Shown here: positions 3,821 through 40,000 of the stretch, piece by piece
Numbering within the stretch: the first letter of the stretch is position 1
Layout of the letters: each line of letters opens with the position of its first letter
NCBI RefSeq assembly: GCF_011682175.1
Contig: NZ_WHJG01000037.1
Span: 1-64,000 of the forward strand
DNA from: Massilia frigida
GTDB lineage: Bacteria > Pseudomonadota > Gammaproteobacteria > Burkholderiales > Burkholderiaceae_D
DNA length: 64,000 nucleotides
Direction of reading: 5' to 3'
Made by a program: the position numbers and the translations under genes
The notes under the pieces: generated by a model
What the model saw: only the letters and a program-made list of their open reading frames with translations
Told to the model about the DNA's origin: nothing
The model's database searches: none

Positions 3821-3866
3821 TAAAAATTTTCCCGTACCTGACGCTAAGGCAAGATGGACGCGATGC

Positions 3867-4754: not shown

Positions 4755-4901
4755 TTATTGGCAACTGCCAGTAGATCTTCAGTAACGACGATCCACTGGG
4801 CAGCTATTTATTGAAGGTATTGCACGAACAGCGGCAGGGGCAGGAGCAAGAACACGCGACCGACTTTATTGATTTAAGACTGACTATATTTGTTCCAGTC
4901 A
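4755..4901. mobile_element. Tn7-like transposon end with TnsB-type binding sites
   Basis: Read on the minus strand from 4901, the end begins TGACTGGAACAAATATAGTC. It is followed by TCTTAAATCAATAAAGTC, and further in by TTCAATAAATAGC. These resemble the TnsB sites of Tn7, whose consensus contains ACAATAAAGTCTTAAAC. The terminal TG is 22 bases past the glmS stop. This region also lies upstream of the second tniQ gene and so may hold its promoter. The exact terminal base is inferred from the resemblance and distance. Confidence 0.7.
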
Positions 4902-4960
4902 TGAGTCAGCACGCCAGCTGCTTTTACTCCACCGTCACCGACTTGGCCAGATTACGCGGC
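4902..4960 (-). other. attTn7 region: glmS 3' end and insertion point
   Basis: TnsD of Tn7 reads the last codons of glmS, and insertion occurs about 25 bases beyond the stop. The stop is at 4924-4926 and the proposed transposon boundary at 4901/4902. The five bases 4902-4906 would be one copy of the expected target duplication. The glmS reading frame is intact up to its conserved C-terminal KSVTVE, so the insertion does no harm to the host gene. Confidence 0.7.
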
Positions 4961-18768: not shown

Positions 18769-21700
18769 ATGCAAACTGCCGCTGCTTCGGCCACATCCTT
18801 CGTTCCCTTCTCTGCGCTGCTGGCCGAAATCAAACCAGACCAGACGCCGTTGCGCGCCGCCATCACCGCCGCTTACCGCCGCGATGAAGCCGAGGCCGTC
18901 GCCTGGCTGCTGGGACAGGGCAACAACGCCCATCCGGACGCGCACGCGCTGGCGCACCGCCTGGTCTCGGCCGTGCGTGAAAAACGCACGCGTTCATCCG
19001 GCGTCGACGCGCTGATGCATGAATTCTCGCTGTCTTCGGAAGAAGGTGTCGCACTGATGTGCTTGGCCGAAGCGCTGCTGCGTATTCCCGACAAGCAAAC
19101 CGCCGACCGCCTGATTGCCGACAAGATCAGCAAGGGCGACTGGGGCAAGCACCTGGGCGAATCACCTTCGCTGTTCGTCAACGCCGCCACCTGGGGTTTG
19201 CTGATTACCGGCAAGCTGGTCAGCACCAGCAGCGAAACCGGGCTCGGCTCGGCGCTGACCAAACTGATCGGCAAAGGCGGCGAGCCGCTGATCCGCAAGG
19301 GCGTCGACCTGGCCATGCGCATGCTGGGCAACCAGTTCGTGACCGGCCAGACCATCGGCGAGGCGATCAAGAACAGCCGCGACAACGAGCAGCGCGGCTA
19401 CCGCTATTCCTACGACATGCTGGGCGAAGCGGCCCTGACCGAAGCGGATGCGAAGAATTATTACGCCTCGTACGAAACGGCGATCCATGCGATCGGCAAG
19501 GCATCGAACGGACGCGGCATCAAGGATGGACCGGGCATTTCGGTCAAGCTGTCGGCCCTGCATCCGCGTTATAGCCGCGCGCAGCATGCGCGCATGATGA
19601 GCGAACTGCTGCCGCGCGTGCGCAGCCTGGCCTTGCTGGCCAAGCAGTACAACATCGGCATCAATATCGATGCGGAAGAAGCCGACCGCCTGGAAATTTC
19701 ACTCGACATGATGGAAGCGATGGCGTTCGATCCGGAACTGGCCGGTTTCGAGGGCATCGGCTTCGTGGTGCAGGCCTACCAGAAGCGCTGCCCGTTCGTG
19801 ATCGATTACCTGATCGACCTGGCGCGCCGCAGCGGCCGCAAATTCATGGTGCGGCTGGTAAAAGGCGCGTATTGGGATGCTGAAATCAAGCGCGCGCAAG
19901 TCGATGGCATGCCCGGTTATCCGGTCTATACGCGCAAGGTATACACCGACGTGTCTTACCTGACCTGCGCCAAAAAACTGTTGAAAGCAAGCGAACTGCT
20001 GTACCCGCAATTTGCCACCCACAATGCGCACAGCCTGGCGGTGATTTACACCTGGGCGCAGCAGGACGGCATCAAGGATTATGAATTCCAGTGCCTGCAC
20101 GGCATGGGCGAAACGCTGTACGACCAGGTCGTCGGCAAAGCCAATCTGGACAAGCCGTGCCGCATTTATGCGCCGGTCGGTTCGCACGAAACGCTGCTCG
20201 CCTACCTGGTACGCCGGCTGCTGGAAAACGGCGCCAATTCCTCGTTCGTGAACCAGATCGTCGATGAAAAAGTGAAGATCGAGTCGCTCATCGCCGATCC
20301 GTTCGAGGCATCGCGCGCGCAAGGCGGCGTGCCGCATCCGGGCATCGTCTTGCCGCTTGCCCTGTTCAATGCGGAGCGCAAGAATTCGGCCGGTCTCGAC
20401 CTGACCAACGAAGATGTGCTGCGCAATATCGGCACCGCATTGGCACAACCGCGCAATTACCACGCCGCGCCATTGATCGCCGGCCCCGTGGTGGCCGGCA
20501 CGCCCGCGTCGATTCGCAATCCGGCGCTGCATGCCGACGTGGTTGGCAAGGTGAGCGACGCCAGTAGCGCCGATGTGGAGACGGCGCTGCACAGCGCCAG
20601 CAATTACGCCATGGACTGGCAAACCACGGGGCCGACGGCGCGTGCCGCGATGCTCGCACGGGTGGCCGATCTGTTTGAAGAAAACTACCCGGAACTGATG
20701 GCGCTGGCCATTCGCGAAGCCGGCAAATCGCTGCCGAATGCGATTGCCGAAATCCGCGAGGCGGTCGATTTCCTGCGCTATTACGCGGCCCAGGTGCACG
20801 GTACGCAGCAGGTGCTGGCACTCGGTCCGGTCACCTGTATCAGCCCGTGGAATTTCCCGCTCGCGATCTTTACCGGCCAGGTGGCGGCAGCGCTTGCGGC
20901 CGGCAACGTGGTGCTGGCAAAACCGGCGGAACAAACGCCGCTGATCGCTTATCGCGCGGTGCAGCTGTTCCATGAAGCGGGGATTCCGGCAGCCGCCCTG
21001 CAATTTTTGCCGGGCCGCGGCGAAGTCGTTGGCGCCGGCCTGACGCTTGACGCGCGTGTCAAGGGCGTGATTTTCACTGGTTCGACCGAAGTGGCGCAGC
21101 TGATCAACCGCACCCTGGCGGCGCGCTCGGTCAAGGAATCCTGCGATATTGCCTTGATCGCCGAAACGGGCGGCCAGAATGCGCTGATCGTCGATTCCTC
21201 GGCCTTGCCGGAACAGGTGGTGCAGGATGTGATGACGTCGGCGTTCGATAGCGCCGGCCAGCGTTGCTCAGCCTTGCGGGTCTTGTTCCTGCAACAGGAA
21301 ATCGCCGATAAAACCATCAAGATGCTCAAGGGCGCGATGCAGGAATTGCGCGTTGGCGTGCCCGATCGCCTGGCCACCGATATCGGCCCGGTGATCGATG
21401 CGGAAGCACAGCAAAACCTGCTGCGCCATATCGAACGCATGAAGCCAACCGCAAAAAACTATTTTGCGCTGGACGTGCCCGCGGCAGTGGCGGCGCAAGG
21501 CACTTTCGTGGCGCCGACCGTTCTCGAAATCGGTTCCTTGTCGGAACTCAAGCACGAGGTATTCGGCCCGGTCTTGCACATCATCCGTTATCGCCGCGCC
21601 GATTTGCCGAAGCTGATCGATTCGATCAACGCCACCGGTTTTGGCCTGACGCTCGGCGTCCATTCGCGCATCGATGAAACGATCGATTTCATCAGCTCGC

Positions 21701-22416
21701 GCGCGCATGTGGGTAATATCTACGTGAACCGCAATATCGTCGGCGCCGTGGTCGGCGTGCAGCCGTTCGGCGGCGAAGGCCAGTCCGGAACCGGCCCGAA
21801 AGCGGGCGGTCCGCTTTACCTCAAGCGCCTGCAACGTGCGGCGCCGGCACTGCTGCAGCATGAACGCCAGGCCACGCCGGGCCTCGATGCCTTGCTGGTG
21901 TGGGCCAAAGCCCACGGCCACGCGCACGTGGCGACCCTGGCCGAGGAATACATGCGTACTACGCTGGCCGGCACCAGCCTGACTTTGCCAGGTCCGACCG
22001 GCGAACGCAACGACTTGTCGTTTGCCCCGCGCGGCGCCATTTTGTGTGCGGCAGCAACGCCTGGCGTGTTGCTCAATCAATTGGCGGCTTGCCTGGCAAC
22101 GGGTAACCAGGCGCTTGTGCTGGCGCGCGCGAAGGAAGTCATTCCCGAAGGCTTGCCGCCGGAAGTGGCGGACCGTATCACCTTTGTGAACGGGGCCGAT
22201 ACGGCGGAATGCCAGTTCCAGATTGCCTTGGTGGAAGCGTCGCTGGGAGCCGAATTGTGGCCCGTGTTAGCAAGCCGCCAGGGAGCGATTGTCGGCGTGA
22301 TCGATACCTCGGAAGAAGGTGCGATTGCGCTGTGGCGCATGGTGGCCGAGCGCGCACTGTGCGTTAATACCACTGCGGCTGGCGGAAACGCGAGCCTGAT
22401 GACCTTAGGTCTGTAA
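18769..22416 (+). CDS. putA: bifunctional proline dehydrogenase / L-glutamate gamma-semialdehyde dehydrogenase
   Basis: PutA oxidises proline to glutamate in two steps, passing electrons first to the quinone pool via FAD and then to NAD. From ATG 18769 the protein has 1215 residues. The proline dehydrogenase barrel includes FVTGQTIGEAI, DMLGEAALT and VRLVKGAYWDAEIK. The aldehyde dehydrogenase part has PVTCISPWNFPLAIFTGQ, ETGGQNALIVDSS and the catalytic Cys near 832 (SAGQRCSALRVL). A C-terminal domain of about 200 residues follows. The ribbon-helix-helix of trifunctional PutA is absent at the N-terminus. Downstream, after 35 bp, is alanine dehydrogenase, so the two may be co-transcribed for amino-acid catabolism. 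Confidence 0.97.
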   Translation: MQTAAASATSFVPFSALLAEIKPDQTPLRAAITAAYRRDEAEAVAWLLGQGNNAHPDAHALAHRLVSAVREKRTRSSGVDALMHEFSLSSEEGVALMCLAEALLRIPDKQTADRLIADKISKGDWGKHLGESPSLFVNAATWGLLITGKLVSTSSETGLGSALTKLIGKGGEPLIRKGVDLAMRMLGNQFVTGQTIGEAIKNSRDNEQRGYRYSYDMLGEAALTEADAKNYYASYETAIHAIGKASNGRGIKDGPGISVKLSALHPRYSRAQHARMMSELLPRVRSLALLAKQYNIGINIDAEEADRLEISLDMMEAMAFDPELAGFEGIGFVVQAYQKRCPFVIDYLIDLARRSGRKFMVRLVKGAYWDAEIKRAQVDGMPGYPVYTRKVYTDVSYLTCAKKLLKASELLYPQFATHNAHSLAVIYTWAQQDGIKDYEFQCLHGMGETLYDQVVGKANLDKPCRIYAPVGSHETLLAYLVRRLLENGANSSFVNQIVDEKVKIESLIADPFEASRAQGGVPHPGIVLPLALFNAERKNSAGLDLTNEDVLRNIGTALAQPRNYHAAPLIAGPVVAGTPASIRNPALHADVVGKVSDASSADVETALHSASNYAMDWQTTGPTARAAMLARVADLFEENYPELMALAIREAGKSLPNAIAEIREAVDFLRYYAAQVHGTQQVLALGPVTCISPWNFPLAIFTGQVAAALAAGNVVLAKPAEQTPLIAYRAVQLFHEAGIPAAALQFLPGRGEVVGAGLTLDARVKGVIFTGSTEVAQLINRTLAARSVKESCDIALIAETGGQNALIVDSSALPEQVVQDVMTSAFDSAGQRCSALRVLFLQQEIADKTIKMLKGAMQELRVGVPDRLATDIGPVIDAEAQQNLLRHIERMKPTAKNYFALDVPAAVAAQGTFVAPTVLEIGSLSELKHEVFGPVLHIIRYRRADLPKLIDSINATGFGLTLGVHSRIDETIDFISSRAHVGNIYVNRNIVGAVVGVQPFGGEGQSGTGPKAGGPLYLKRLQRAAPALLQHERQATPGLDALLVWAKAHGHAHVATLAEEYMRTTLAGTSLTLPGPTGERNDLSFAPRGAILCAAATPGVLLNQLAACLATGNQALVLARAKEVIPEGLPPEVADRITFVNGADTAECQFQIALVEASLGAELWPVLASRQGAIVGVIDTSEEGAIALWRMVAERALCVNTTAAGGNASLMTLGL

Positions 22417-22451
22417 TGATCTAAATATAAAACTACCCCTTGGAGGATGAC

Positions 22452-23567
22452 ATGATTGTAGGCGTTCCAAAAGAGATCAAGAATCACGAATACCGGGTAG
22501 GCTTGACACCGCCGAGCGTGCGCGAATTAAGCTCGCGCGGGCATCAGGTACTGGTTCAGAAAAATGCGGGCGCTGAGATCGGCTTATCCGATGAGCAGTA
22601 TGTCGCCGCTGGTGCGAGCATTGTCGACGACGCGAAAGAGATTTTCGCGCGCGCCGACATGATCGTCAAAGTCAAGGAACCGCAGCCGGTCGAATGCGCG
22701 ATGCTGCGCGACGGCCAGATCCTGTACACCTATCTGCACCTGGCGCCGGATCCGGAGCAGACGGCGGCGCTGGTGAAATCGGGCGCCATTTGCATCGCGT
22801 ACGAAACCATCACCGGCGCCGGCGGCGGTTTGCCGCTGCTCGCTCCCATGAGCGAAGTGGCGGGGCGCATGGCGATCCAGGCCGGCGCCGCGCATCTGGA
22901 AAAATCCAAGGGCGGCATGGGATTGCTGCTCGGCGGCGTACCTGGCGTGGCGGCCGGCCATGTGGTGATTATCGGGGCGGGCGTGGTTGGTACCAATGCG
23001 CTGCAAATGGCGGTCGGTACCGGCGCGCGGGTGACGGTGCTCGACAAGAGCATCGACCGCCTGCGCCAGCTCGACCTGGTATTCGGCAACCGCATTTCGA
23101 CCCAGTATTCGAATGCCCAGTCGATCGAGGAAGCGGTGCTGTCGGCCGACCTGGTCATCGGCGGCGTGCTGGTGCCGGGCGCGGCGGCGCCCAAGCTGGT
23201 CACGCGCGCGATGATTTCGAAGATGAAGGCGGGCGCGGTGGTGGTCGATGTGGCGATCGACCAGGGCGGCTGTTTTGAAACCTCGCATGCGACCACGCAC
23301 GCCGATCCAACCTATATCGTCGACGGCGTGGTGCATTACTGCGTGGCGAACATGCCGGGCGCGGTGGCGCGCACGTCAACCTTTGCCTTGAATAACGCGA
23401 CCATCGGCCATGCGGTGGCCCTGGCGGAAAAGGGCTGGAAAAAAGCCCTGGCCGACGACGTGCATCTGAAAAACGGCCTGAATGTCTGCAAAGGCAAGGT
23501 CACTTACGCGGCGATTGCCCAGGCGCTCGGCTACGACTACACCCCGGCCGACTCCCTGCTGGCTTGA
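22452..23567 (+). CDS. ald: alanine dehydrogenase
   Basis: Ald interconverts L-alanine and pyruvate plus ammonia with NAD. The 371-residue length is exact for the family. The N-terminal MIVGVPKEIKNHEYRVGLTP carries the substrate-binding Arg and Lys environment, YLHLAP contains the conserved His, and the NAD-binding glycine motif is IIGAGVVGTNA. The start is ATG 22452 directly behind GGAGG. It follows putA by 35 bp and probably shares its transcript. Its last 31 bp overlap the 3' end of the convergent nucleosidase gene. Confidence 0.97.
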   Translation: MIVGVPKEIKNHEYRVGLTPPSVRELSSRGHQVLVQKNAGAEIGLSDEQYVAAGASIVDDAKEIFARADMIVKVKEPQPVECAMLRDGQILYTYLHLAPDPEQTAALVKSGAICIAYETITGAGGGLPLLAPMSEVAGRMAIQAGAAHLEKSKGGMGLLLGGVPGVAAGHVVIIGAGVVGTNALQMAVGTGARVTVLDKSIDRLRQLDLVFGNRISTQYSNAQSIEEAVLSADLVIGGVLVPGAAAPKLVTRAMISKMKAGAVVVDVAIDQGGCFETSHATTHADPTYIVDGVVHYCVANMPGAVARTSTFALNNATIGHAVALAEKGWKKALADDVHLKNGLNVCKGKVTYAAIAQALGYDYTPADSLLA

Positions 23568-24349
23568 GGCGGGCGGCTTTTCAGGTCGGCGCAGAAACGC
23601 GTGACGATATGAAAAGCATAACGGGAGGCGACTGATTTCACGAAACGCATGAAATCGGTCGCCGCCTCTTCATTCGCGTTATCCGAAATCGTCCGGATCA
23701 CCGCAAACGGAATGCCCAGCTCGAAACATACCTGGGCCACTGCCGCTCCTTCCATTTCCACCGCCAGCAAGCCTGGCAGCGCCCCGTTCAACTGCGCCAG
23801 GTGCGCGCGTTTGCTGATGAACTGATCGCCGCTGGCAATCAGGCCGCGGTGCACCCGTGGCCGCTCCAGGCCGAATTCGGCGCGTTCCACCTCGTCGATC
23901 ACCGTCTCGAAGTCCTTGTCGAGGAAATCCAGTGCCGCGCTGGCAACGCGCTGGCTCATGTGCAAATCCGACTGGAAATGCGACAAACCGGTCAGCGGCA
24001 CCTCGAAACGCGGAAACAGCGGGCTGGCATCCATGTCGTACTGGACCAGCGATTCGGCCACCACGATGTCGCCCACCTTCACGCCGGCATCCCCGGCGCC
24101 GGCAACGCCAGTGAAGAGGATGTGGGTAACTCCGTACTTTTCCACAAGCGTGGTCGCGGTCATGGCGGCGGCAACCTTCCCAATCCGCGACAGGACGCAT
24201 ACAGCGTCGATGCCAGCGAATTGTCCTGATGCGTAGTTGCGCATGCCATGGATGAGCGTGGCGGGGCCTTGCATGGCTTCCACGAGCCCTTCCTGTTCTT
24301 CGTGCAAGGCGCTAATGATGCCTAAACGTATGTATTTGCCTGAATTCAT
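23537..24349 (-). CDS. mtnN: 5'-methylthioadenosine/S-adenosylhomocysteine nucleosidase-like protein
   Basis: Enzymes of this family cleave adenine from MTA, SAH or 5'-deoxyadenosine. The 270-residue protein has the signatures LGIISALHEEQEGL, GVAGAGDAGVKVGDIVVAES, VEMEGAAVAQVCFELGIPFAVIRTISDNAN and a C-terminal ATDFMRFV. It is nearly 40 residues longer than E. coli MtnN, mainly around residues 140-190, so a different nucleoside substrate is possible. The start chosen (24347-24349) precedes the conserved beginning by nine residues. The 3' end overlaps ald convergently. The upstream side faces the DnaA-box region. Confidence 0.85.
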   Translation of the reverse strand: MNSGKYIRLGIISALHEEQEGLVEAMQGPATLIHGMRNYASGQFAGIDAVCVLSRIGKVAAAMTATTLVEKYGVTHILFTGVAGAGDAGVKVGDIVVAESLVQYDMDASPLFPRFEVPLTGLSHFQSDLHMSQRVASAALDFLDKDFETVIDEVERAEFGLERPRVHRGLIASGDQFISKRAHLAQLNGALPGLLAVEMEGAAVAQVCFELGIPFAVIRTISDNANEEAATDFMRFVKSVASRYAFHIVTRFCADLKSRPPQASRESAGV

Positions 24350-24698
24350 GCTTTGCAGAACCTTTTTGGTGAACGTGCATGTGGGTAAGTCGCGAGTTTT
24401 CCACAAGGATAAACCGTTCTACGTGCACTGCAAGCTTCGGAAGGCGCGCAGAAGGCCGCCAGCGTCGATTTCTGCAGACAGTCCCGGCTTGCGGTCCAAG
24501 GGCGCTGCAATGGCCTTGGCGGTGCCTTCAGGAGCTTCTGGATGAATCGGCGGTTCTGCGTTTTTGCCAGGCTCAGGCTGTCAACGCTTGTTTTTGAGGT
24601 TTTTGAGGCTGTTGAAGGAGTCTGCTGTGGATGACTTCGAGGTTATGCACCGCTTTGCCAGGGTTTAGGGTTTTATATAAGTAGTATGTATACAAATT

Positions 24699-24893
24699 TA
24701 GTAGTGATAGTAAACGGCGGTTTTTGTGTGGATAAGTTCGATTTTATCAACAGGATCAGTCGCTTACGTCTCGAAAAAGTCGCTGGAAAAGACCTGTATC
24801 TTCGAAGGATGACTGTTGGACAAAAATTTGCCTGTGAACAAAGTCGATGGTTTTGCACATCTCATCCTGTGGATATCCATCGACTTGTCCACA
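24699..24893. repeat. DnaA-box module, copy 1
   Basis: This copy consists of TAG repeats, a GC-rich spacer (ACGGCGG), a perfect DnaA box at 24727, weaker boxes, and an end module CTGTGGATATCCAT with TTGTCCACA 8 to 9 bases later. Copy 2 shows the same order with nearly the same spacing (141 versus 140 bp from the first box to the TGTGGATAT box). Landmarks such as CTGTATC, GGACAAA and AAAGTCG occur at matching places. The similarity is that of a diverged duplication. Confidence 0.65.
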
Positions 24894-25097
24894 AGTGCTG
24901 CCAGGAAGCTCAACCGTTCGCGGCTTTTTTTTCGTCTTCAGAAAAGTGGTTCGCACGCTTTTGTGGCCGATTCTTTTTTTTTGGAAACTTTCAATTTTTG
25001 TCCAGCAAAGAAATTTTTTTGATTTGGGGGGTCTTTTTTTTTGACTTTCGTTTTTCAAAGGTCTTGATGGTTTACCTAAAAAGGTTAAATATAGATT

Positions 25098-25293
25098 TAG
25101 TAGTAGTTGTTAACAGGTGCACATTTCTGTGGATAATGGCAAAATTCTGCGCGAAATCAGGAGCTTGCACGAGGTATAAGTCGGTGATCAGCTCTGTATC
25201 CGGCTGGTACCAATTTGGGACAAATTTTGGTTTGTGCATAAAGTCGCGTTTATCCACAAACGGTGCCTGTGGATATCCATAGAGTTATCCACA
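25098..25293. repeat. DnaA-box module, copy 2
   Basis: This is the second, diverged copy of the module. It has three TAG units, a perfect DnaA box at 25128, TTATGCACA at 25233 (minus strand), a perfect box at 25250, and the end module CTGTGGATATCCAT with TTATCCACA at 25285. It carries more perfect boxes than copy 1. Between the copies lies a stretch with several long T-runs (24930-25060). Copy 2 ends only 30 bp before the next gene's start codon. Confidence 0.65.
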
Positions 25294-25322
25294 GGTCATT
25301 TGGAACGTTTTCAGGAGGTGGT

Positions 25323-26360
25323 ATGGAGTTGCACGCGTTGTTCAAGTTTCCAATTCTGCAAGGTCCGATGGCTGGGGGCGCAAGCCGGGCCGAATTGGTG
25401 GCCGCGGTATCGAATTCGGGCGGCTTGGGTTGCCTGGCGGGATCGTTGTTATCGCCTGCGGCGCTGCGCGACGAGGTGGGCCGGCTGCGCGCAATGACCG
25501 ATCAGCCATTTTTGCTCAATTTGTTTGTTCTTCAGACTCCCACACCCAGCGCGGACGAGATCAACGCCGCCGCTGAGCTGCTGCGCCCGGTCTGGGAAAG
25601 CCTTGGTTGGGACAAATTACCCGTGCCGGCCCAGTGGTGCCACGATTTCAACGCCCAGTTCGACGCCTTGATCGACCTGCGTCCGGCTGCGGCCAGTTTT
25701 ACGTTCGGCATATTGACGCCGTCCCAGGTCGAGCGTTTGCACGATGCCGGCATGTACGTCATGGGCACGGTCACCACCGTGGAGGAAGCATTGGCCTGGG
25801 AAAACGTGGGCGCCGATGCCGTCATCGCTTCCGGGATCGAGTCGGGCGGCCATCGCGGCACCTTTCTTGGCCCGCAGGAAGACGCCACCCTGGGTGGAAA
25901 AGCACTCTGGCCGCAGGTTGCCGAGGCCGTCAAGATTCCAATGATCGCCGCTGGCGGCATCATGACCGGGGTCGATATCGCCGAAGCACTGGCGCTGGGT
26001 GCGCAGGCGGTTCAGATGGGCAGCGCGTTCCTTGTGACCGACGAATCCGGCATCCACCCCGCCTACAAACAGCGGCTGGTCGAGGCGCGCGACACGCCCA
26101 CCCGCCTGACCCGCGCTTTCAGCGGCCGCTACGCGCGTGGCCTGGAAAACACCTTCATGCGCAAGATGGAAAGTGTTGAAAAGCAAGTTCCAGCGTATCC
26201 TGTCCAAAATGCACTGACCACAGGCATACGCGCAGCCGCAGCCGAACGCGGCGATACCGAACTGATGTCGCTCTGGGCGGGTGCTGAAATCCGCCGGGCG
26301 CGGCCGATGCCGGTAGCGAAATTGATGCAAATGCTGGTGGCCGAGATGCGTACAAACTAA
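25323..26360 (+). CDS. nitronate monooxygenase
   Basis: This flavoprotein family oxidises alkyl nitronates such as propionate-3-nitronate. From ATG 25323, with AGGAGGT seven bases upstream, the protein has 345 residues. It shows the FMN-binding TIM-barrel motifs ILQGPMAGGASRAELVAAVSNSGGLG, the catalytic-His segment SGIESGGHRGTF (His177) and AAGGIMTGVDIAEALALGAQAVQMGS. It is followed 22 bp later by a GMC oxidoreductase and may be co-transcribed. The true physiological substrate is unknown, as for most family members. Confidence 0.93.
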   Translation: MELHALFKFPILQGPMAGGASRAELVAAVSNSGGLGCLAGSLLSPAALRDEVGRLRAMTDQPFLLNLFVLQTPTPSADEINAAAELLRPVWESLGWDKLPVPAQWCHDFNAQFDALIDLRPAAASFTFGILTPSQVERLHDAGMYVMGTVTTVEEALAWENVGADAVIASGIESGGHRGTFLGPQEDATLGGKALWPQVAEAVKIPMIAAGGIMTGVDIAEALALGAQAVQMGSAFLVTDESGIHPAYKQRLVEARDTPTRLTRAFSGRYARGLENTFMRKMESVEKQVPAYPVQNALTTGIRAAAAERGDTELMSLWAGAEIRRARPMPVAKLMQMLVAEMRTN

Positions 26361-26382
26361 AAAACGAGACGAGGAGCAGCAT

Positions 26383-28008
26383 TTGGAATCGGCAGGAGAA
26401 TACGACTACATCATCGTCGGCGGCGGCACCGCCGGCTGCGTACTGGCCAACCGCCTGACCCGGCGCCGCGACACCACCGTGCTGCTGATCGAAGCGGGCG
26501 GGCGCGACGACTATGTCTGGATCCACATTCCGGTCGGTTATCTGCACTGCATCGGCAACCCGCGCACCGACTGGATGTACAAGACCGAACCGGATGCCGG
26601 CCTGAATGGCCGCTCGCTGATTTATCCGCGCGGCAAAGTCCTTGGCGGCAGCTCCTCGATCAACGGCATGATCTACATGCGCGGCCAGTCCCAGGATTAC
26701 GAGCGCTGGGCCGAACTGACCGGCGACGCCGGCTGGGGCTGGGATAAGGTATTGCCGCTTTTTAAAAAGAGCGAGGATTATCACGGCGGGGCCAGCGAAC
26801 TGCATGGCAGCGGCGGCGAATGGCGGGTCGAAAAGCAGCGTTTGTCGTGGCAATTGCTGGACGCCTTTCGCGATGCCGCCGAACAAACCGGGATCCGCAA
26901 GACCGAGGATTTCAATGGCGGCGACAATGACGGTTGCAACTATTTCGACGTCAACCAGAAGCGCGGCATCCGCTGGAATACGGCCAAGGCCTTCCTCAAG
27001 CCCGCCGCCAAGCGCGACAACCTGACCATCATGACTGGCTGCCACGTGGAACGTTTGATCATCGACGACACGGAGCAGGGCAAGGTGTGCCGTGGGGTCG
27101 AATTTACCGGTGGTGGCACGGCCTTCACGGCGACCGCCATGCGCGAGACCGTGCTGACCGCCGGCGCGGTCGCTTCGCCGCAGATTTTGCAACTGTCCGG
27201 CGTCGGGCCGGCGGCGCTGCTGCGCGATGCCGGCATTGCGGTCCAGGTCGATGCGCCCGGGGTTGGGGATAACTTGCAGGATCATTTGCAGCTGCGCATG
27301 ATCTATAAAGTCAGCAATGCACGCACCCTCAACACCACGGCCGCGAGCTGGTTCGGCAAGATGAAGATCGGCATGGAATACGCGATGTTCCAGAGCGGGC
27401 CGATGTCGATGGCGCCGTCGCAACTGGGTGCGTTTGCCCGCTCCGATCCGGGCCAGCTTACGCCGAACCTGCAATATCACGTCCAGCCATTGTCGCTGGA
27501 AAAATTCGGCGATCCCCTGCACCCGTTTCCCGCGTTCACGGCGAGCGTGTGCAACTTGCGGCCGACATCGCGCGGGCATGTGCGGATTGCCTCAAGCGAT
27601 TCCTACGCCGCGCCGAAAATTACGCCGAATTACCTGAGTACGGAGCAAGACCGCAAAACCGCGGCGGCTGCGCTGACGCTGACCCGCAAGATCGTGGCCG
27701 CGCCGGCCATGGCGCGCTATGCGCCGGAGGAATTCAAGCCGGGCATGGCGTTTCGCACGGAAGAAGAATTGGCCGAGGCGGCCGGGCAGATCGGCACCAC
27801 GATTTTCCACCCGGTCGGCACCTGCAAGATGGGCAGGGCAGGCGATCCCATGGCCGTGGTCGACAGTCAATTGCGCGTGAACGGCGTGCAAAAACTGCGC
27901 GTGGTTGACGCCTCCGTCATGCCGCTGATCACGTCCGGCAATACCAACAGCCCCACCATCATGATCGCCGAACGCGCGGCCGAACTGATTGCCCAAGCGG
28001 GCAAATAA
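26383..28008 (+). CDS. GMC-family FAD-dependent oxidoreductase (choline/alcohol dehydrogenase type)
   Basis: The 541-residue protein begins with the FAD-binding IIVGGGTAGCVLANRLTRR. It has the GMC signature GKVLGGSSSINGMIYMRGQ and ends with GTCKMG and VVDASVMPLITSGNTNSPTIMIAERAAELI. Family members oxidise alcohols such as choline or long-chain and aromatic alcohols. Translation appears to start at TTG 26383, eight bases after GAGGAG; no ATG is better placed. It follows the nitronate monooxygenase closely. No betaine aldehyde dehydrogenase gene is near, so choline is not favoured over other alcohols. Confidence 0.92.
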   Translation: MESAGEYDYIIVGGGTAGCVLANRLTRRRDTTVLLIEAGGRDDYVWIHIPVGYLHCIGNPRTDWMYKTEPDAGLNGRSLIYPRGKVLGGSSSINGMIYMRGQSQDYERWAELTGDAGWGWDKVLPLFKKSEDYHGGASELHGSGGEWRVEKQRLSWQLLDAFRDAAEQTGIRKTEDFNGGDNDGCNYFDVNQKRGIRWNTAKAFLKPAAKRDNLTIMTGCHVERLIIDDTEQGKVCRGVEFTGGGTAFTATAMRETVLTAGAVASPQILQLSGVGPAALLRDAGIAVQVDAPGVGDNLQDHLQLRMIYKVSNARTLNTTAASWFGKMKIGMEYAMFQSGPMSMAPSQLGAFARSDPGQLTPNLQYHVQPLSLEKFGDPLHPFPAFTASVCNLRPTSRGHVRIASSDSYAAPKITPNYLSTEQDRKTAAAALTLTRKIVAAPAMARYAPEEFKPGMAFRTEEELAEAAGQIGTTIFHPVGTCKMGRAGDPMAVVDSQLRVNGVQKLRVVDASVMPLITSGNTNSPTIMIAERAAELIAQAGK

Positions 28009-28179
28009 GCGATTCGGATAGACCCCGGATTTGCCGCAAAGTTGCACTTCCATGTCGCTTGCCTGATAGGCATCAGCGCTTGCAGCATGGTAGTTATACT
28101 GTATTGTGACCAAAAACCATTGTGTGTATTATCGAATAAAAAAGGTTTCAAAGCAGTATCAAAATAAACCGGAGACACA

Positions 28180-28950
28180 ATGACAGACGTCATATTGGAA
28201 ACAAAGAACCTGACCAAAGAGTTCAAGGGTTTTACTGCGGTCAATGATGTTAACCTCACCGTCCAGCGTGGCCACATCCACGCGCTGATCGGTCCCAACG
28301 GCGCCGGCAAGACCACCTGCTTCAATCTGCTGACCAAATTCCTGGTGCCCACCTCGGGCCAGATCCTGTTCAACGGTAAAGATATCACCGCCGCCCATCC
28401 GGCCCAGATCGCGCGCATGGGCATTATCCGTTCGTTCCAGATTTCCGCTGTGTTTCCGCACCTGACCGTGCTGCAGAACGTGCGCATCGGTTTGCAGCGC
28501 GAACTGGGCACGTCCTTCCATTTCTGGCGCAGCGAACGCTCGCTCTCGCTCCTCGACGACCGCGCCATGGCGTTGCTGGCCGAAGTCGACCTGACCGAAT
28601 TCGCCGATACCGTGACGGTCGACATGCCCTACGGACGCAAGCGTGCGCTCGAAATCGCCACCACCCTGGCGATGAAGCCCGAGCTGATGCTGCTCGACGA
28701 GCCGACCCAGGGCATGGGCCACGAAGATGTGCACCGCGTTACCGAGCTGATCAAAAAGGTGTCGGCCGGCCGCACGATCCTGATGGTGGAACACAATATG
28801 AACGTGGTGTCCGGCATCTGCGACAAGATCACCGTGCTGCAAAGGGGAGCGCTGCTGGCCGAAGGCAGTTATGCCGAGGTGTCGACCAATCCGCAGGTGA
28901 TGGAAGCCTATATGGGCACGACCAGCGCCGAACTCGAAGGAGCGCACTGA
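28180..28950 (+). CDS. livG: branched-chain amino acid ABC transporter ATP-binding protein LivG
   Basis: This is one of two ATPases of the high-affinity Leu/Ile/Val importer. The 256-residue protein has Walker A GPNGAGKTT, Q-loop RSFQ, the LivG-type signature MPYGRKRALEIATTLA, Walker B LMLLDEPTQGMG and switch His in VEHNM. It is the first gene of livG-livF-livK-livH-livM and its stop overlaps the start of livF (TGATG). A ribosome binding site GGAG lies before the start. Confidence 0.95.
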   Translation: MTDVILETKNLTKEFKGFTAVNDVNLTVQRGHIHALIGPNGAGKTTCFNLLTKFLVPTSGQILFNGKDITAAHPAQIARMGIIRSFQISAVFPHLTVLQNVRIGLQRELGTSFHFWRSERSLSLLDDRAMALLAEVDLTEFADTVTVDMPYGRKRALEIATTLAMKPELMLLDEPTQGMGHEDVHRVTELIKKVSAGRTILMVEHNMNVVSGICDKITVLQRGALLAEGSYAEVSTNPQVMEAYMGTTSAELEGAH

Positions 28951-29657
28951 TGACCGCGGCGCTCGAAATATCGAACCTGCAAGCCTGGTACGGCGAATCG
29001 CACATCCTCCACAACGTCAATTTGCGGGTCGAGAAGGGCGAAGTCGTCACCCTGCTGGGCCGCAACGGCGCCGGGCGCACCACTACCCTGCGCGCGATCA
29101 TGGGCTTGACCGGGGCGCGCACCGGGTCGATCAAGGTCAACGGCATCGAAGCGATCGGCCTGCCGACGCACAAGATCGCCCACCTGGGCATCGGCTATTG
29201 CCCGGAAGAGCGGGGGATTTTTTCCTCGCTGTCGACCGAGGAAAACCTGATGCTGCCGCCGCAGCTGGCTGGCAGCGAGCCCGGCATGTCGGTGGCCGAG
29301 ATCTACGAGATGTTCCCGAATTTGCTGGAACGCAAAAACAGCCAGGGCACGCGTTTGTCCGGCGGCGAGCAGCAGATGCTGGCGGTGGCGCGCATCCTGC
29401 GCACCGGCGCGCGCCTGTTGCTGCTCGATGAAATATCCGAAGGCCTGGCGCCGGTGATCGTGCAAGGCCTCGCGCGCATGATTACCACGCTCAAGGCCAA
29501 GGGCTACACCATCGTCATGGTGGAACAGAATTTCCGCTTCGCCGCACCGCTGGCGGACCGGTTTTACGTGGTGGAGCATGGTCAGATCGTGGAGACCTTT
29601 GCTTCGTCGGAACTGAGCGCCAAGATGCCGGTCCTGACCGAGCTGCTGGGCGTATAG
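28950..29657 (+). CDS. livF: branched-chain amino acid ABC transporter ATP-binding protein LivF
   Basis: This is the second ATPase of the liv importer, 235 residues. Its signature motif LSGGEQQMLAVARIL, Walker B LLLLDEISEGLAP and switch His (VEQNF in this family) are present. The Walker A reads GRNGAGRTTT: the invariant Lys is replaced by Arg43. I recall similar forms among betaproteobacterial LivF proteins but could not verify this, so the change may be a lineage trait rather than damage. It overlaps livG and precedes livK by 56 bp. Confidence 0.94.
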   Translation: MTAALEISNLQAWYGESHILHNVNLRVEKGEVVTLLGRNGAGRTTTLRAIMGLTGARTGSIKVNGIEAIGLPTHKIAHLGIGYCPEERGIFSSLSTEENLMLPPQLAGSEPGMSVAEIYEMFPNLLERKNSQGTRLSGGEQQMLAVARILRTGARLLLLDEISEGLAPVIVQGLARMITTLKAKGYTIVMVEQNFRFAAPLADRFYVVEHGQIVETFASSELSAKMPVLTELLGV

Positions 29658-29713
29658 CAGGATAGCGACAGCCCAACAGCCAGACCCATACCTATATCCT
29701 CAATGGAGACAAT

Positions 29714-30919
29714 ATGAAACGTAACATCATTGCTTTAGCAGCCAGCGCAGCCTGCCTCGGCTTGGTCCTTCCGGCACAGGCGCAAGTATCGAACGACACC
29801 ATCAAGATCGGCATGCTCACCGACGTGTCCGGCGTGTACGCCGACGTCGATGGCGCCGGTGGTGCGGAAGCGGTCAAGATGGCGATTGCCGACCTGGGCG
29901 GCAACATCAACGGCAAGAAGATCGAATTCGTCTTCGCCGACCACCAGAACAAGGCCGATATCGCCGCCAGCAAGGCGCGCGAATGGTTCGACCAGCAGGG
30001 TGTCGACATGCTGATCGGCGGCACCAATTCAGGCGCCAACCTGGCCATGGCCAAGATCGCGTCCGAAAAGAAAAAGGTCTTCATCTCGATCGGCGCCGGC
30101 TCCGCCCGCCTGACCAATGAAGAGTGCTCGCCCTTCACCGTGCACTACGCTTACGACACGGTGGCCTTGGCACGTGGAACAGGTGGCGCGATTGTGAAGC
30201 AGGGCGGCAAGTCCTGGTATTTCCTGACGGCCGATTATGCCTTCGGCCAGTCGCTGGAGAAAGATACGACGGACGTGATCAAGGCGGCCGGCGGCACGGT
30301 GGCGGGCACCTCCAAGCATCCGCTGTCGGCGTCGGATTTCTCGTCCTTCCTGCTCAAGGCGCAGGGGTCGAAAGCGCAGATTCTGGGTCTGGCCAATGCC
30401 GGCGGCGACATGATCAATGCGGTCAAGGCAGCCAACGAGTTTGGTGTTGGCAAGTCGATGAAGCTGGCCGGTTTGCTGGTGTTCATCAATGATATCCACA
30501 CCCTGGGATTGAACCTGACCCAGGGCATGTACCTGACCGATGGCTGGTACTGGGATCAGAGTCCGGAAAGCCGGGCCTGGTCGAAGCGCTACTTTGCCAA
30601 GATGAAGAAGTTCCCATCGATGCTGCAAGCCGCCGATTACTCGGCCGCGACCAACTACCTGAACGCGGTCAAGGCGATCGGGACCGACGACAGCGAGAAG
30701 GTCATGGCGCAGTTGAAGAAGACCAAGATCAACGACATGTTCACCAAGGGCGGCGAGATTCGTGCGGATGGCCGCATGGTGCACGATATGTACCTCATGG
30801 AAGTGAAGAAGCAGGCGGAGTCGAAGTATCCGTGGGATTACTACAAGGTCGTCGCGACCATTCCTGGCGCGCAGGCGTACACGACCAAGGCGGAAACGAA
30901 GTGCGCGTTGTGGAAGTAA
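29714..30919 (+). CDS. livK: branched-chain amino acid ABC transporter substrate-binding protein
   Basis: This periplasmic binding protein of the Leu/Ile/Val family has 401 residues. It carries a signal peptide (MKRNIIALAASAACLGLVLPAQAQ) and then a type I periplasmic fold starting VSNDTIKIGMLTDVSGVYADVDG. A GGAG precedes the start. Its position between the ATPase and permease genes suggests the same operon. A REP-like palindrome in the 144-bp gap to livH may make the upstream message more stable, so that the binding protein is made in excess. Confidence 0.93.
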   Translation: MKRNIIALAASAACLGLVLPAQAQVSNDTIKIGMLTDVSGVYADVDGAGGAEAVKMAIADLGGNINGKKIEFVFADHQNKADIAASKAREWFDQQGVDMLIGGTNSGANLAMAKIASEKKKVFISIGAGSARLTNEECSPFTVHYAYDTVALARGTGGAIVKQGGKSWYFLTADYAFGQSLEKDTTDVIKAAGGTVAGTSKHPLSASDFSSFLLKAQGSKAQILGLANAGGDMINAVKAANEFGVGKSMKLAGLLVFINDIHTLGLNLTQGMYLTDGWYWDQSPESRAWSKRYFAKMKKFPSMLQAADYSAATNYLNAVKAIGTDDSEKVMAQLKKTKINDMFTKGGEIRADGRMVHDMYLMEVKKQAESKYPWDYYKVVATIPGAQAYTTKAETKCALWK

Positions 30920-33319: not shown

Positions 33320-33335
33320 TGCTTCACGTGAAACA
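33320..33335. promoter_or_regulatory. parS site (one mismatch)
   Basis: TGCTTCACGTGAAACA differs at one position from the widely conserved parS sequence TGTTTCACGTGAAACA. It lies in the degenerate region behind the hydrolase remnant, about 6.7 kb from parB. Confidence 0.8.
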
Positions 33336-36334: not shown

Positions 36335-36350
36335 TGTTCCACGTGGAACA
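36335..36350. promoter_or_regulatory. parS site, perfect palindrome
   Basis: TGTTCCACGTGGAACA is a perfect 16-bp palindrome of the parS type and begins right after the stop codon of the TSUP gene. ParB nucleates here to form the origin-segregation complex with ParA. Confidence 0.92.
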
Positions 36351-36407: not shown

Positions 36408-36423
36408 CGTTCCACGTGAAACA
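36408..36423. promoter_or_regulatory. parS site
   Basis: CGTTCCACGTGAAACA is the third parS sequence of the cluster. It lies 61 bp upstream of the mnmG -10 box (TATAAT at 36484-36489), so ParB spreading could affect mnmG transcription. Confidence 0.87.
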
Positions 36424-36521: not shown

Positions 36522-38453
36522 ATGCTATTTCCAACTGAATTCGACGTCATCGTCGTCGGCGGCGGCCATGCCGGCACCGAGGCTGCGCTCGCTTCTGCCC
36601 GCATGGGCCAGAAGACACTGCTGCTCACCCACAACATCGAAACGCTCGGCCAGATGTCTTGCAACCCGTCTATCGGCGGGATCGGCAAGGGACACCTGGT
36701 CAAGGAAGTCGACGCCATGGGCGGCGCCATGGCGATCGCCACGGACGAATCCGGTATCCAGTTTCGTATCCTTAACTCGTCCAAAGGCCCGGCCGTACGC
36801 GCCACCCGCGCGCAAGCGGACCGCATCCTGTACAAGCAGGCGATCCGCTCGCGCCTGGAAAACCAGCCGAACCTGTGGCTGTTCCAGCAGGCGGTCGACG
36901 ACCTGATGCTCGAAGGCGACCGCGTGGTCGGCGCCGTCACCCAGATCGGCATCAAATTCCGCGCCCGAGCGGTGGTGCTGACGGCTGGCACTTTCCTCGA
37001 TGGGAAGATCCACGTCGGCCTGCAAAACTACTCCGCCGGCCGCGCTGGCGATCCGCCTGCAATCTCGCTGTCGGCGCGCCTGAAGGAAATGAAGCTGCCG
37101 CAAGGGCGCCTCAAGACTGGCACGCCGCCGCGTATCGATGGCCGCAGCATCGACTTTTCGCAAATGTCCGAGCAGCCGGGCGACCTCGATCCGGTGCCGG
37201 TGTTCTCGGTCATGGGTAACACCGCCATGCACCCGCGCCAGGTCCCGTGCTGGGTGACGCACACGAATGCGCAGACGCACGACATCATCCGTGCCGGCCT
37301 GGACCGCAGCCCGATGTATACCGGCGTGATCGAGGGCGTCGGCCCGCGCTACTGCCCGTCGATCGAAGACAAGATCCACCGCTTCTCCGGCAAGGAATCG
37401 CACCAGATTTTCCTGGAGCCGGAAGGCTTGACGACCAACGAATTCTATCCAAACGGTATCTCGACCAGCCTGCCGTTCGACGTGCAGATCGCCCTGGTAC
37501 GCTCGATGAAGGGCATGGAAAACGCCTTCATCCTGCGTCCGGGCTATGCCATCGAATACGATTATTTCGACCCGCGCGGCCTGAAAACCTCGCTCGAAAC
37601 CAAGGCCGTACAGGGCTTGTTCTTTGCCGGCCAGATCAACGGCACCACCGGTTACGAAGAAGCGGCGGCGCAGGGCATGCTGGCCGGAATCAACGCCGCG
37701 CTGCTGACCAAGGGCAGTGAAGCGTGGGTTCCGGGCCGTTCCGAAGCCTACCTTGGCGTGCTGGTCGACGACCTCACCACCCAGGGCGTGGCCGAGCCGT
37801 ATCGCATGTTCACCAGCCGCGCCGAGTTCCGCCTGAGCCTGCGTGAGGACAATGCCGACATGCGCCTGACTGACATCGGCCGCAAACTCGGCTGCGTGGG
37901 CGATGCCCAGTGGGAGGCATTCGAGCGCAAGCGCGAAGCTGTCGCTGTCGAACTGGAGCGCCTGCGCACGACCTGGGTAAACCCGCGCATCCTCGCCAGC
38001 GCCGAATCGGAGCGCGTGATCGGCCAGGCCATCGAGCGCGAATACTCGCTGGCCGACCTGCTGCGCCGTCCGGGCGTGGACTATGAAAAGCTGATGGGCC
38101 TGTCCGGCGTGGATGGCCAGGTGCTGGCCGGTCCGGGCGTCGACGATCCCGCAGTCAAGGAACAGGTCGAAATCCAGCTCAAATACGCCGGCTATATCGA
38201 CCGCCAGGCCAAGGAAGTGGAGCGTCACGACCACTACGAAAACCTCAAGTTGCCGGCCGGATTCGACTATCTCGACATCACCGCGCTGTCGATCGAGGTG
38301 CGTCAGAAGCTCGACAAGCAGCGTCCTGAAACGCTGGGGCAGGCATCCCGCATCTCGGGCGTGACGCCGGCGGCGATCTCGCTGCTGCTGGTGCATTTGA
38401 AAAAACGTGGCGCCAAAGGCTTTGCCACCCTCAACGAGGAGTTGGCAGGATGA
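36522..38453 (+). CDS. mnmG: tRNA uridine-5-carboxymethylaminomethyl modification enzyme MnmG (GidA)
   Basis: MnmG, together with MnmE, installs the cmnm5 group at U34 of certain tRNAs, using FAD and a folate carbon. The 643-residue length is usual. The FAD motif is [21 protein letters not shown], followed by [21 protein letters not shown] and, in the middle, [10 protein letters not shown] and [16 protein letters not shown]. It heads mnmG-rsmG-parA-parB, a cluster found near the replication origin in very many bacteria. Its last bases overlap rsmG (ATGA). Confidence 0.98.
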
Positions 38454-39106
38454 AGTTTTTCGACCGTAACGCCATTGCGCCCGTGCTGGCCAATGGCATC
38501 AAGGAACTCAAGCTCGACCTGAACGAACAGCAGCACGGGCAATTGCTCGACTACCTGGCCCTGCTGGCCAAGTGGAACTCGGTGTACAACCTGACCTCGG
38601 TGCGCGATCCCATGCAGATGGTGACCCACCATGCGCTCGATTCGCTGGCTGCGGTCTCGGCGTTCGAGGGTGCCGTCCGCGTGCTCGACGTGGGCGCGGG
38701 GGGCGGCTTGCCTGGCATCGTGCTCGCCATCGCGCGGCCAGACATGAAAGTGGCCCTGATCGATACCGTGCACAAGAAGACAGCCTTCCTCACGCAAGTC
38801 AAAGCCGAACTGGGCCTGGCCAATGTCACTGTGCACACGGCGCGCGTGGAGCAGTTGCAGGTGCCGCACAAATTCGACGTCATCACCTCGCGCGCTTTTG
38901 CCGACCTGTCCGACTTCGTCAATTGGTCGGGACACCTGCTGGCCGAGGGCGGCAAATTCATCGCCCTCAAAGGCACGGCGCCGGCGGACGAACAGGAACG
39001 GCTGCCGGGCGACTGGAAAGTGAGCCAATTGCGGGCTATCCAGGTTCCAGGACTGCAGGCGGAGCGGCATCTCGTTTTTATCGAGAAGAACCAACAAACA
39101 GTATAA
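38450..39106 (+). CDS. rsmG: 16S rRNA (guanine(527)-N(7))-methyltransferase RsmG (GidB)
   Basis: RsmG methylates G527 of 16S rRNA with SAM; loss gives low-level streptomycin resistance in other bacteria. The 218-residue protein has [12 protein letters not shown], the SAM motif [20 protein letters not shown] and [15 protein letters not shown]. Its start overlaps the mnmG stop. Confidence 0.97.
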
Positions 39107-39185
39107 ATCAAATAAACGATTTATATTAAGCAAACTATATAAATCGAATAAACGATTTATACGATTAAAACAGTATAAATCGTTT
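39102..39185. promoter_or_regulatory. repeated AT-rich palindromes upstream of parA
   Basis: Two 24-bp near-identical palindromic units lie at 39102-39125 and 39138-39161, exactly 36 bp apart. Each has TATAAATC on the left and GATTTATA on the right; the second has a perfect 9-bp inverted arm (TATAAATCG/CGATTTATA). A half-unit TATAAATCGTTT follows at 39174-39185. The block overlaps the rsmG stop codon and ends 25 bp before parA. It looks like an operator, possibly for ParA/ParB autoregulation, with a promoter embedded in it. Confidence 0.6.
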
Positions 39186-39210
39186 GCATCAAACTATCAT
39201 AAGAGCATAC

Positions 39211-39981
39211 ATGGCGAAAATATTTTGCGTTGCAAATCAAAAGGGCGGCGTAGGCAAGACCACCACCAGCGTCAACCTGTCAGCGGGCCTGGCCAAACTG
39301 GACCAGCGCGTGCTGCTCGTCGACCTGGACCCGCAGGGCAACGCGACCATGGGCGCCGGCATCAACAAGGCGGGCCTGAAGGCATCGACCTATGAAGTGC
39401 TGCTGGGCGAGGCCGATGTGAGCACGGCGCGCACGCGCTCGGAAGCGGGGCGCTTCGACGTGCTGCCCTCGAACCGCGAGCTGGCCGGCGCCGAAGTCGA
39501 GATGGTCGAACTGGAACACCGCGAGCGCCGCCTGAAGGATGCGCTGGCGTCGGTCGACAAGGAATACGACTTCATCCTGATCGACTGCCCGCCAGCCCTG
39601 TCGATGCTGACCCTGAACGGCTTGTGCGCCGCACACGGCGTCATCATCCCGATGCAGTGCGAGTACTACGCGCTGGAAGGCTTGTCGGATCTGGTCAACA
39701 CCATCAAGAAGGTGCATGCCAACCTGAACACCGACCTGAAGATCATTGGTCTCTTGCGCGTGATGTTCGATCCGCGCATGACCTTGTCGCAGCAGGTATC
39801 GGCCCAGCTGGAGCAGCACTTCGGCGACAAGGTCTTCAACACCATCATCCCGCGCAATGTGCGCCTGGCCGAAGCGCCGTCGTACGGCGTGCCGGGCGTG
39901 GTGTTCGATCCGTCCTCGAAAGGGGCGCAGGCCTACATCGCCTTTGGCGCCGAGATGGTCGAACGCATCAAAACAATGTAA
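39211..39981 (+). CDS. parA: chromosome-partitioning ATPase ParA (Soj)
   Basis: ParA binds DNA in its ATP form and is released by ParB, which moves the duplicated origin regions apart. The 256-residue protein starts MAKIFCVANQKGGVGKTTT, with the deviant Walker A KGGVGKTTT, and has DFILIDCPPALSMLTLNGL as Walker B region. An upstream in-frame TTG (39184) is disfavoured. parB follows after 19 bp. Confidence 0.97.
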   Translation: MAKIFCVANQKGGVGKTTTSVNLSAGLAKLDQRVLLVDLDPQGNATMGAGINKAGLKASTYEVLLGEADVSTARTRSEAGRFDVLPSNRELAGAEVEMVELEHRERRLKDALASVDKEYDFILIDCPPALSMLTLNGLCAAHGVIIPMQCEYYALEGLSDLVNTIKKVHANLNTDLKIIGLLRVMFDPRMTLSQQVSAQLEQHFGDKVFNTIIPRNVRLAEAPSYGVPGVVFDPSSKGAQAYIAFGAEMVERIKTM

Positions 39982-40000
39982 ACGAAGGCATTCAAGAATC

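Follow-up and report, generated by a model that had tools for sequence, protein, structure and literature searches.

Where does the main chromosome of Massilia frigida begin to replicate, and why does a gap proposed as its origin hold much the same set of motifs twice? The first-pass annotation had proposed that this gap, set apart from dnaA, is a chromosomal origin with duplicated DnaA-box modules. We followed the proposal through the window (the whole stretch of DNA analysed, 64,000 nucleotides), through the genome to which it belongs, a draft of 7.79 Mb in 255 contigs, and through related genomes. The gap and its immediate surroundings are as follows.

24,350-25,322: DnaA-box gap, between an MTA/SAH-nucleosidase gene and a nitronate-monooxygenase-like gene
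23,537-24,349, minus strand: mtnN, MTA/SAH nucleosidase, left flank (PF01048, 1.7e-41; NF004079 above cut-off)
25,323-26,360, plus strand: nitronate monooxygenase family gene, right flank (PF03060, 4.3e-88)
24,727 (minus), 25,128 (minus), 25,250 (plus) and 25,285 (plus): perfect TTATCCACA boxes

Twelve DnaA boxes, four perfect (TTATCCACA) and eight with one mismatch, lie in the gap, all of them confined to 24,380-25,293, a span of 914 bp; the four perfect boxes and at least seven variants read there earlier were thus borne out by the count. The gap makes up 1.5% of the 64-kb window and holds 12 of its 22 boxes with at most one mismatch, against 5.9 +/- 2.5 expected for the window as a whole, and none of 100 shuffles reached 22. 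Genome-wide, 33 perfect boxes were found in the 7.79 Mb, and 18 matches to a reversed control pattern. A dense DnaA-box cluster in an intergenic region, as expected of a DnaA-dependent chromosomal oriC, is therefore present. An open frame of 198 aa which crosses the gap was considered as a gene and rejected; it is probably no gene, because it is interrupted in six close relatives, where a stop follows after 31 to 184 codons.

The boxes belong to two paralogous modules, A and B, of about 225 bp each and arranged in tandem. Each follows one plan, namely an AT-rich stretch, a TAG-repeat tract, the motif GTWAAC, a spacer of 11-13 bp, the box TGTGGATAA, whose position is taken as 0, then an IHF-like site (+27) and a box in reverse orientation (+157/158). 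The order of AT-rich stretch, TAG run, spacer and TGTGGATAA that the first-pass annotation had seen twice was found at 24,670-24,735 and 25,070-25,136, so that the window holds two units with an AT-rich stretch next to a box in R1 orientation. The R1 model used below is a sequence-only profile of 69 positions (AT-rich stretch, TAG tract and box). The parts of the modules, and one extra box pair, are listed here.

24,670-24,698, plus strand: module A, AT-rich presumed unwinding element (TTTTATATAA...GTATGTATACA), judged by its sequence and forming the start of the R1 model match 24,670-24,735
24,699-24,715, plus strand: module A, TAG-repeat tract TAGTAGTGATAGTAAAC, with an identity of 0.83 over the region in 17 A modules
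24,727-24,735, minus strand: module A, R1-like perfect DnaA box, TGTGGATAA on the plus strand, position 0; identical in 17 genomes
24,754-24,766, plus strand: module A, IHF-like site at +27, GATCAGTCGCTTA, matching WATCARNNNNTTR with 1 mismatch
24,868-24,893, unstranded: module A, inverted box pair +141/+158, R4-like end
25,070-25,097, plus strand: module B, AT-rich presumed unwinding element, at the start of the R1 model match 25,068-25,136
25,098-25,114, plus strand: module B, TAG-repeat tract TAGTAGTAGTTGTTAAC, with an identity of 0.85 over the region in 16 B modules
25,128-25,136, minus strand: module B, R1-like perfect DnaA box, position 0
25,155-25,167, plus strand: module B, IHF-like site at +27, AATCAGGAGCTTG, matching WATCARNNNNTTR perfectly and the stricter WATCAANNNNTTA with 2 mismatches
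25,233-25,293, unstranded: module B, inverted box pairs +105/+122 and +140/+157; 25,250 and 25,285 perfect
24,380-24,405, unstranded: extra inverted box pair with starts 17 bp apart and no TAG tract; in the seven closest genomes including our own

The extra pair is possibly the remnant of a third module. A further inverted box pair of 17-bp spacing was seen within the mtnN coding sequence (24,121-24,146), again in the seven closest genomes including our own. At the left end of the window (1-5,000), the GC content is 0.52-0.53 versus about 0.61 for the remainder, and this DNA may have been acquired.

Within the genus, BLAST with the gap found it in 17 of 17 genomes (our own included), as two separate matches in seven of these. 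Modules A and B are both present in 16 of the 17, and the locus of the remaining genome (G005) ends 183 bp past module A. The distance between the first boxes of A and B ranges from 337 to 633 bp, and the offsets inside the modules are fixed: the B modules carry boxes at +105, +122, +140 and +157 in 16 of 16 genomes, and the A modules carry them at +141/142 and +158/159, some also at +17, +88 or +106. Among the 17 A modules, identity is 0.56-0.61 in the AT-rich, spacer and linker segments as against 0.83 in the TAG tract, and GTATGTATACA is present in all 17. The nearest matches to window positions 20,001-30,000, among 80 of at least 118 named loci, came from Massilia psychrophila, M. agrisoli and M. 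soli, at 76-77% identity over 4.4-5.0 kb.

Beyond the genus, the R1 model matched 155 of 195 genomes of the same family, in 33 of its 44 genera, with two matches in 102 genomes, three in 29, one in 24 and none in 40. Two or three modules are hence found in 131 of the 155 matching genomes, and at least one such genome occurs in 24 of the 33 matching genera; among the matches listed, and where they were compared, the places within one genome lie no more than about 4 kb apart. We infer that this family is the Oxalobacteraceae. A scan of named records, which is no census, gave at least 118 stretches, 80 of which were used for names; these included two Paucimonas records (filed under Burkholderiaceae) and four labelled only Burkholderiaceae, Burkholderiales or Betaproteobacteria. 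The placement of Keguizhuia, Sapientia and Massilia in the Oxalobacteraceae was looked up, and most of the other genus names we take to belong there as well. As to specificity, the model gave 43 matches over 65 sources (1.14 Mb), all of them in the window locus or in loci fetched around earlier matches, and zero in 40 sampled stretches of the relative G012, in the dnaA locus of our own genome and in three other box arrays.

For the geometry, we collected 180 distinct modules from 104 loci, selected by TAG tract, GTWAAC, spacer and first box; many of these loci come from related species, and the counts are accordingly not independent. A reverse box (at most one mismatch) lies at +156 to +159 in 177 of the 180, and a WATCARNNNNTTR site (at most one mismatch) exactly at +27 in 165, perfect in 71, while at any other offset at most 3 modules have such a site (median 0). 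With the stricter IHF consensus WATCAANNNNTTA (PMC10380432), 23, 102, 48 and 7 modules show 0, 1, 2 and 3 mismatches, respectively, at +27. Mean GC over positions -62 to -15 is 0.22, and the internal spacing is nearly invariant across 20 genera whose modules were compared side by side. Both ihfA and ihfB are present, above the NCBIfam cut-offs.

Is this locus, then, the origin, or is it a DnaA-titration or regulatory locus resembling datA, with the true origin at dnaA? The neighbourhood speaks first.

33,320-33,335, plus strand: parS-like site, 1 mismatch
36,335-36,350 and 36,408-36,423, plus strand: two parS-like sites, 2 mismatches each
36,522-40,879, plus strand: mnmG, rsmG, parA and parB (Pfam GIDA, GidB, AAA_31, ParB_N/HTH_ParB)

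These confirm the parS sites, parAB and mnmG-rsmG that had been reported nearby; three parS-like sites stand in the window versus 0.02 expected, and in six genomes all parS sites (two mismatches allowed) but two weak strays lie about 2-20 kb from the module locus. The further statement that everything is transcribed away from the gap applies to the genes adjoining it and to those named on the right; it is limited to them because putA and ald (plus strand, 18.8-23.6 kb) point towards the gap.

The annotation was also right that dnaA is separate: the gene was located on another contig (G000:C194), with one perfect box upstream, the sole box with at most one mismatch in the surrounding 20 kb. One perfect box in the dnaA upstream region is constant in the genus, and the dnaA loci of 16 genomes of other genera have 0-3 perfect boxes (3 in G138), with four boxes of at most one mismatch in G178; this constancy, and the greater numbers in some other genera, are what an origin at dnaA could appeal to. 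Seven congeners carry dnaA and the modules on the same contig, about 236-418 kb apart; for the 16 genomes from other genera, the separation is about 7 to 720 kb.

GC skew gave a further comparison of the two places. With 6-7 neighbouring stretches per group, so that the p values are indicative only, the skew of G063 differs across the modules (p 0.017) and is alike across dnaA (p 0.37), that of G118 changes on the module side (p 0.004) and not on the dnaA side (0.29), and in G045 both sides differ (modules p 0.007, dnaA p 0.014). In G118, the skew of the five stretches within 220 kb to the right of the modules is close to zero (+0.001 to -0.013) and becomes clearly positive only beyond them; in G045, the first stretch to the right of the modules is still negative, and the sign changes within about 60 kb of the modules. 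In G012 (40 stretches of 20 kb, raw and fourfold-site skew), the skew is weak, free fits favour other breakpoints, and a breakpoint fixed at the module locus fits only slightly better than one fixed at dnaA. The cumulative skew of the window itself, a local measure in a draft genome, is lowest between 18 and 22 kb. The first-pass annotation had held that a skew minimum at dnaA would speak for a titration or regulatory locus; no such minimum was seen at dnaA, and two genera show the change at the modules only, but the skew is weak, G045 shows it on both sides and G012 hardly separates the two positions.

Box clusters outside origins do exist, and the weak skew of G012 leaves room for a titration locus. 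Our own genome offers an example of such a cluster at L005:9366-10078 (G000:C189:79,366-80,078), with CACAATCTTATCCACAGAAGGTGTGCAGAA-like cores and four perfect and four one-mismatch boxes, all on one strand, flanked by an exonuclease VII large-subunit-like gene and an exbB/tolQ-like gene (named from their translations); it is possibly a datA-like titration array. This array is unmatched by the AT-rich/TAG/box model, whereas the module locus is matched, and the locus is not the box cluster lacking an unwinding element that datA would lead one to expect, since AT-rich/TAG/box units are there. On account of these units, of the parS sites clustered about the locus in its mnmG-parAB neighbourhood, and of the skew change in relatives, we consider the titration reading very improbable.

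Two more arrays were observed in the same genome. One (L006:4919-5187, G000:C180:50,919-51,187) consists of three 130-bp tandem units with CTGTGGATAAGTNTGTTAACAAG in each; in the other (L007:4798-4832 and 8241-8275, G000:C222), a group of three boxes, two direct and one inverted (the latter with one mismatch), is repeated 3.4 kb further on. In G162 (genus g32), 17 matches to the DnaA ATPase family were counted, 14 of which come from two open frames, 273 and 290 aa long, that are repeated; these are probably, as a guess, multicopy transposon ATP-binding proteins.

Taken together, the conservation of the modules, the proximity of parS, the few boxes at the dnaA loci and the skew change in relatives support an oriC with duplicated modules, a reading that sequence and comparison make well supported. 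An origin displaced from dnaA has precedents within the order: in the sections consulted of the two reports, the skew of Cupriavidus metallidurans switches about 90 kb from dnaA beside three perfect boxes (PMC2864759), and in Burkholderia cenocepacia a second box cluster made it hard to place the origin of chromosome c1 exactly (PMC4948915). Unlike the present locus, neither is described in those sections as having repeated unwinding modules (PMC2864759, PMC4948915).

What kind of unit is the module? The closest layout is that of Escherichia coli K-12 oriC, which, measured likewise from R1, has boxes at +55, +106 and +141, R4 at +180 and, at +27, an IHF-like site with 2 mismatches. Shared by both are the AT-rich element, the box in R1 orientation, the IHF-like motif at +27 between R1 and the middle boxes (a predicted site here, in 165 of 180 modules) and distal boxes which end in an inverted R4; mnmG is a neighbour gene in both, here at a distance of about 11 kb. 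Unlike the single copy of E. coli, there are two or three copies here; no R4-like inverted box was found at +180, its place being taken by the box at +156 to +159 in 177 of 180 modules, so that the 180 bp from R1 to R4 become 156-159, about two helical turns fewer; and the TAG repeats are prominent, with inverted box pairs 17 bp apart at the distal end. By its motifs, each module resembles an E. coli oriC from which about two helical turns have been taken out.

The TAG tract had been taken in the first-pass annotation for the arrangement of the basal unwinding system (BUS), that is, DnaA-trios next to a box, and this claim did not hold. According to the part of the source available to us, the BUS search asks for at least three NAN trios in direct succession, no more than 16 bp from a DnaA box, and its program keeps one candidate per origin (PMC8287927). 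In module A, a pair of contiguous NAN trios stops 13 bp short of the box; in module B, a pair stops 11 bp short of it and a set of three TAGs 21 bp short. The published contiguous-trio pattern is thus absent from both window modules, and it is found in 43 of the 180 modules, below the mean of 72 obtained with the upstream 62 bp shuffled; with 22 bp allowed, the count is 166 versus 89 when shuffled. A standard BUS was hence rejected for the TAG tract, the trios being too few or too distant, with GTWAAC between the TAG run and the spacer.

Since the TAG run is conserved although the BUS pattern is lacking, it may act, by analogy, as a more distal trio-like motif. Like the BUS of Bacillus subtilis and others, the modules have TAG trinucleotides 5' of a DnaA box, and 3'-GAT-5' is the commonest trio in the portion of the published account consulted (PMC8287927); unlike the BUS, they keep the conserved GTWAAC between TAG run and spacer, and most of them lack three contiguous trios near the box. 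The nearer analogy is the oriC of Thermotoga maritima, whose 'eTrio', three TAG repeats between a TTATT motif and the box-proximal trio, is essential for unwinding, according to the excerpt consulted (PMC10316083). The three TAGs of module B, 21 bp from the box, are likewise distal; differently from here, that excerpt shows one copy of the unit in T. maritima and notes neither an IHF site nor a 157-bp ruler (PMC10316083).

Could only one of the two modules unwind, the other being an accessory DnaA-binding region that tunes initiation, as in bipartite oriC1? Known bipartite origins, those of B. subtilis and Helicobacter pylori, have two box subregions with the DNA unwinding element (DUE) in one and a spacer gene that is usually dnaA, as far as the consulted parts of the sources go (PMC4285127, PMC5043019). 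The present locus resembles them in its two DnaA-box subregions, sometimes with a gene between (here mtnN, in loci L154, L138 and L196). In keeping with such an asymmetry, the distal boxes of A in the window are weaker than those of B, and also than the A distal boxes of relatives, and in the genus alignment the distal array is better kept in B (0.86) than in A (0.67). Against it, the TAG tract (0.83 in A, 0.85 in B) and the first box (1.00 and 0.97) are about equally conserved in the two; most modules from the 104 loci have an AT-rich flank, a TAG tract, an IHF-like site and a distal box; and two inverted copies are nearly identical within two genomes of genus g22. Unlike in bipartite origins, moreover, an AT-rich stretch and a TAG tract stand in both modules, by their sequence, and dnaA, far off on another contig, is no spacer gene. 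We therefore keep a single unwinding module as a tentative and rather doubtful alternative to an origin in which both units open.

How the modules are placed relative to each other bears on a third reading, a division of labour in which each module loads one of the two DnaB helicases of a bidirectional origin. Two complete-looking modules would suit it, and in the genomes examined of g22, g17 and g15 the modules are inverted with their AT-rich sides facing inward, an arrangement that would fit helicase loading on the two opposite strands (in g15, the second unit is weak and lacks the first box). Tandem modules of the same orientation are nevertheless the rule in most loci examined, g23 shows the opposite inversion with its modules 3 kb apart, and several genera carry three copies. 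Since the orientation of the modules varies, we rate such a division of labour as improbable.

Distance varies as well, from 3.1 to 3.6 kb in seven Duganella/Rugamonas loci to 0.5 kb in another Duganella. Across 38 loci compared, the order mtnN, modules, (nmo), GMC oxidoreductase and liv genes is common to many, and mtnN lies between the modules in L154 (g22), L138 (g15) and L196 (Undibacterium). In a quick tree of 86 modules, of modest support and with exceptions, upstream and downstream modules of Massilia, Duganella, Rugamonas, Pseudoduganella and Janthinobacterium fall mostly into two groups (SH-aLRT 86 and 89), the exceptions being the second modules of g18, Telluria, M. aurea and CFBP 13730, which were placed in the upstream group. 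Copies from the same genome cluster in g12, g17, g22, g23, g33, g44 and one Herbaspirillum, which points to separate duplications or to homogenisation.

Outside the family, an order-wide search matched 32 of 399 genomes, 20 of them from other families, figures that are no census given a model trained on one family and strict filters. Among the modules of family f31 outside genus g74, the reverse box lies at +180 to +182 in four of five, G446 being the exception; in G228, which belongs to g74, the unit lies about 0.7 kb behind a DnaA-domain match. Two single units with the reverse box at +157/158 were seen in L173 (G360, f42) and L176 (G290, f51), the latter with a dense run of additional boxes. 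Three loci of family f49 (L169, L172 and L177, from G397, G564 and G289) each hold a pair of TAG/box units, separated by 429-611 bp, with a box of the same orientation at +119; judged by these motifs, they are double units of another design within the same order.

We infer, then, that the locus is very probably the oriC of the main chromosome, built of several modules: two complete-looking units in tandem, predicted to depend on DnaA and to serve as parallel, partly redundant firing sites. That the two modules look complete is plain from their anatomy and conservation; that DnaA and IHF bind them, and that both unwind and fire, is what their sequences predict. In such a scenario, DnaA would bind the R1-like box and the distal inverted pair or pairs ending at +157/158, IHF would bend the DNA at +27 and join the two box groups, the DnaA complex would capture the TAG-repeat strand as the AT-rich stretch opens, and DnaB would then be loaded. 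We take A and B to be, most likely, sites that fire in parallel and with partial redundancy within a single origin, since genera differ in the orientation, distance and copy number of their modules but keep the interior of the module rigid. A wider proposition, that the family uses two or three oriC copies at a single locus, each complete and sufficient by itself, which long-term selection has preserved and gene conversion has homogenised in some genera, seems to us evenly poised between right and wrong.

More than one oriC-like unit per chromosome has been reported before, in the putative double origins of DoriC, whose units are split by or lie beside a duplicated dnaA, include an island copy 150 kb off, or stand 291 and 882 kb apart; unlike here, there is no family-wide set of short modules at one locus (PMC4403523). 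In the titles and abstract starts of the open-licence PMC literature on Oxalobacteraceae, Betaproteobacteria and Burkholderia origins or on multiple DUEs, no description of repeated origin modules was found.

Bacterial origins have been described with one unwinding element, and here a complete-looking unit is repeated across a family. This raises the questions of whether both units fire, how double firing is avoided and how initiation is timed. On the practical side, our results suggest that records numbered from dnaA (e.g., G063, G128 and G178) do not start at the origin, which would affect peak-to-trough growth estimates and replichore analyses. Inside the unit the geometry is rigid: TAG tract, GTWAAC and 11-13 bp lead up to R1, the IHF-like site follows at +27, and about 15 helical turns separate R1 from the reverse box. 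With orientation and distance free between units, the family amounts to a natural experiment on what an orisome needs; and if two or three sufficient copies of oriC are indeed in use, 'one origin, one unwinding element' would be no general rule.
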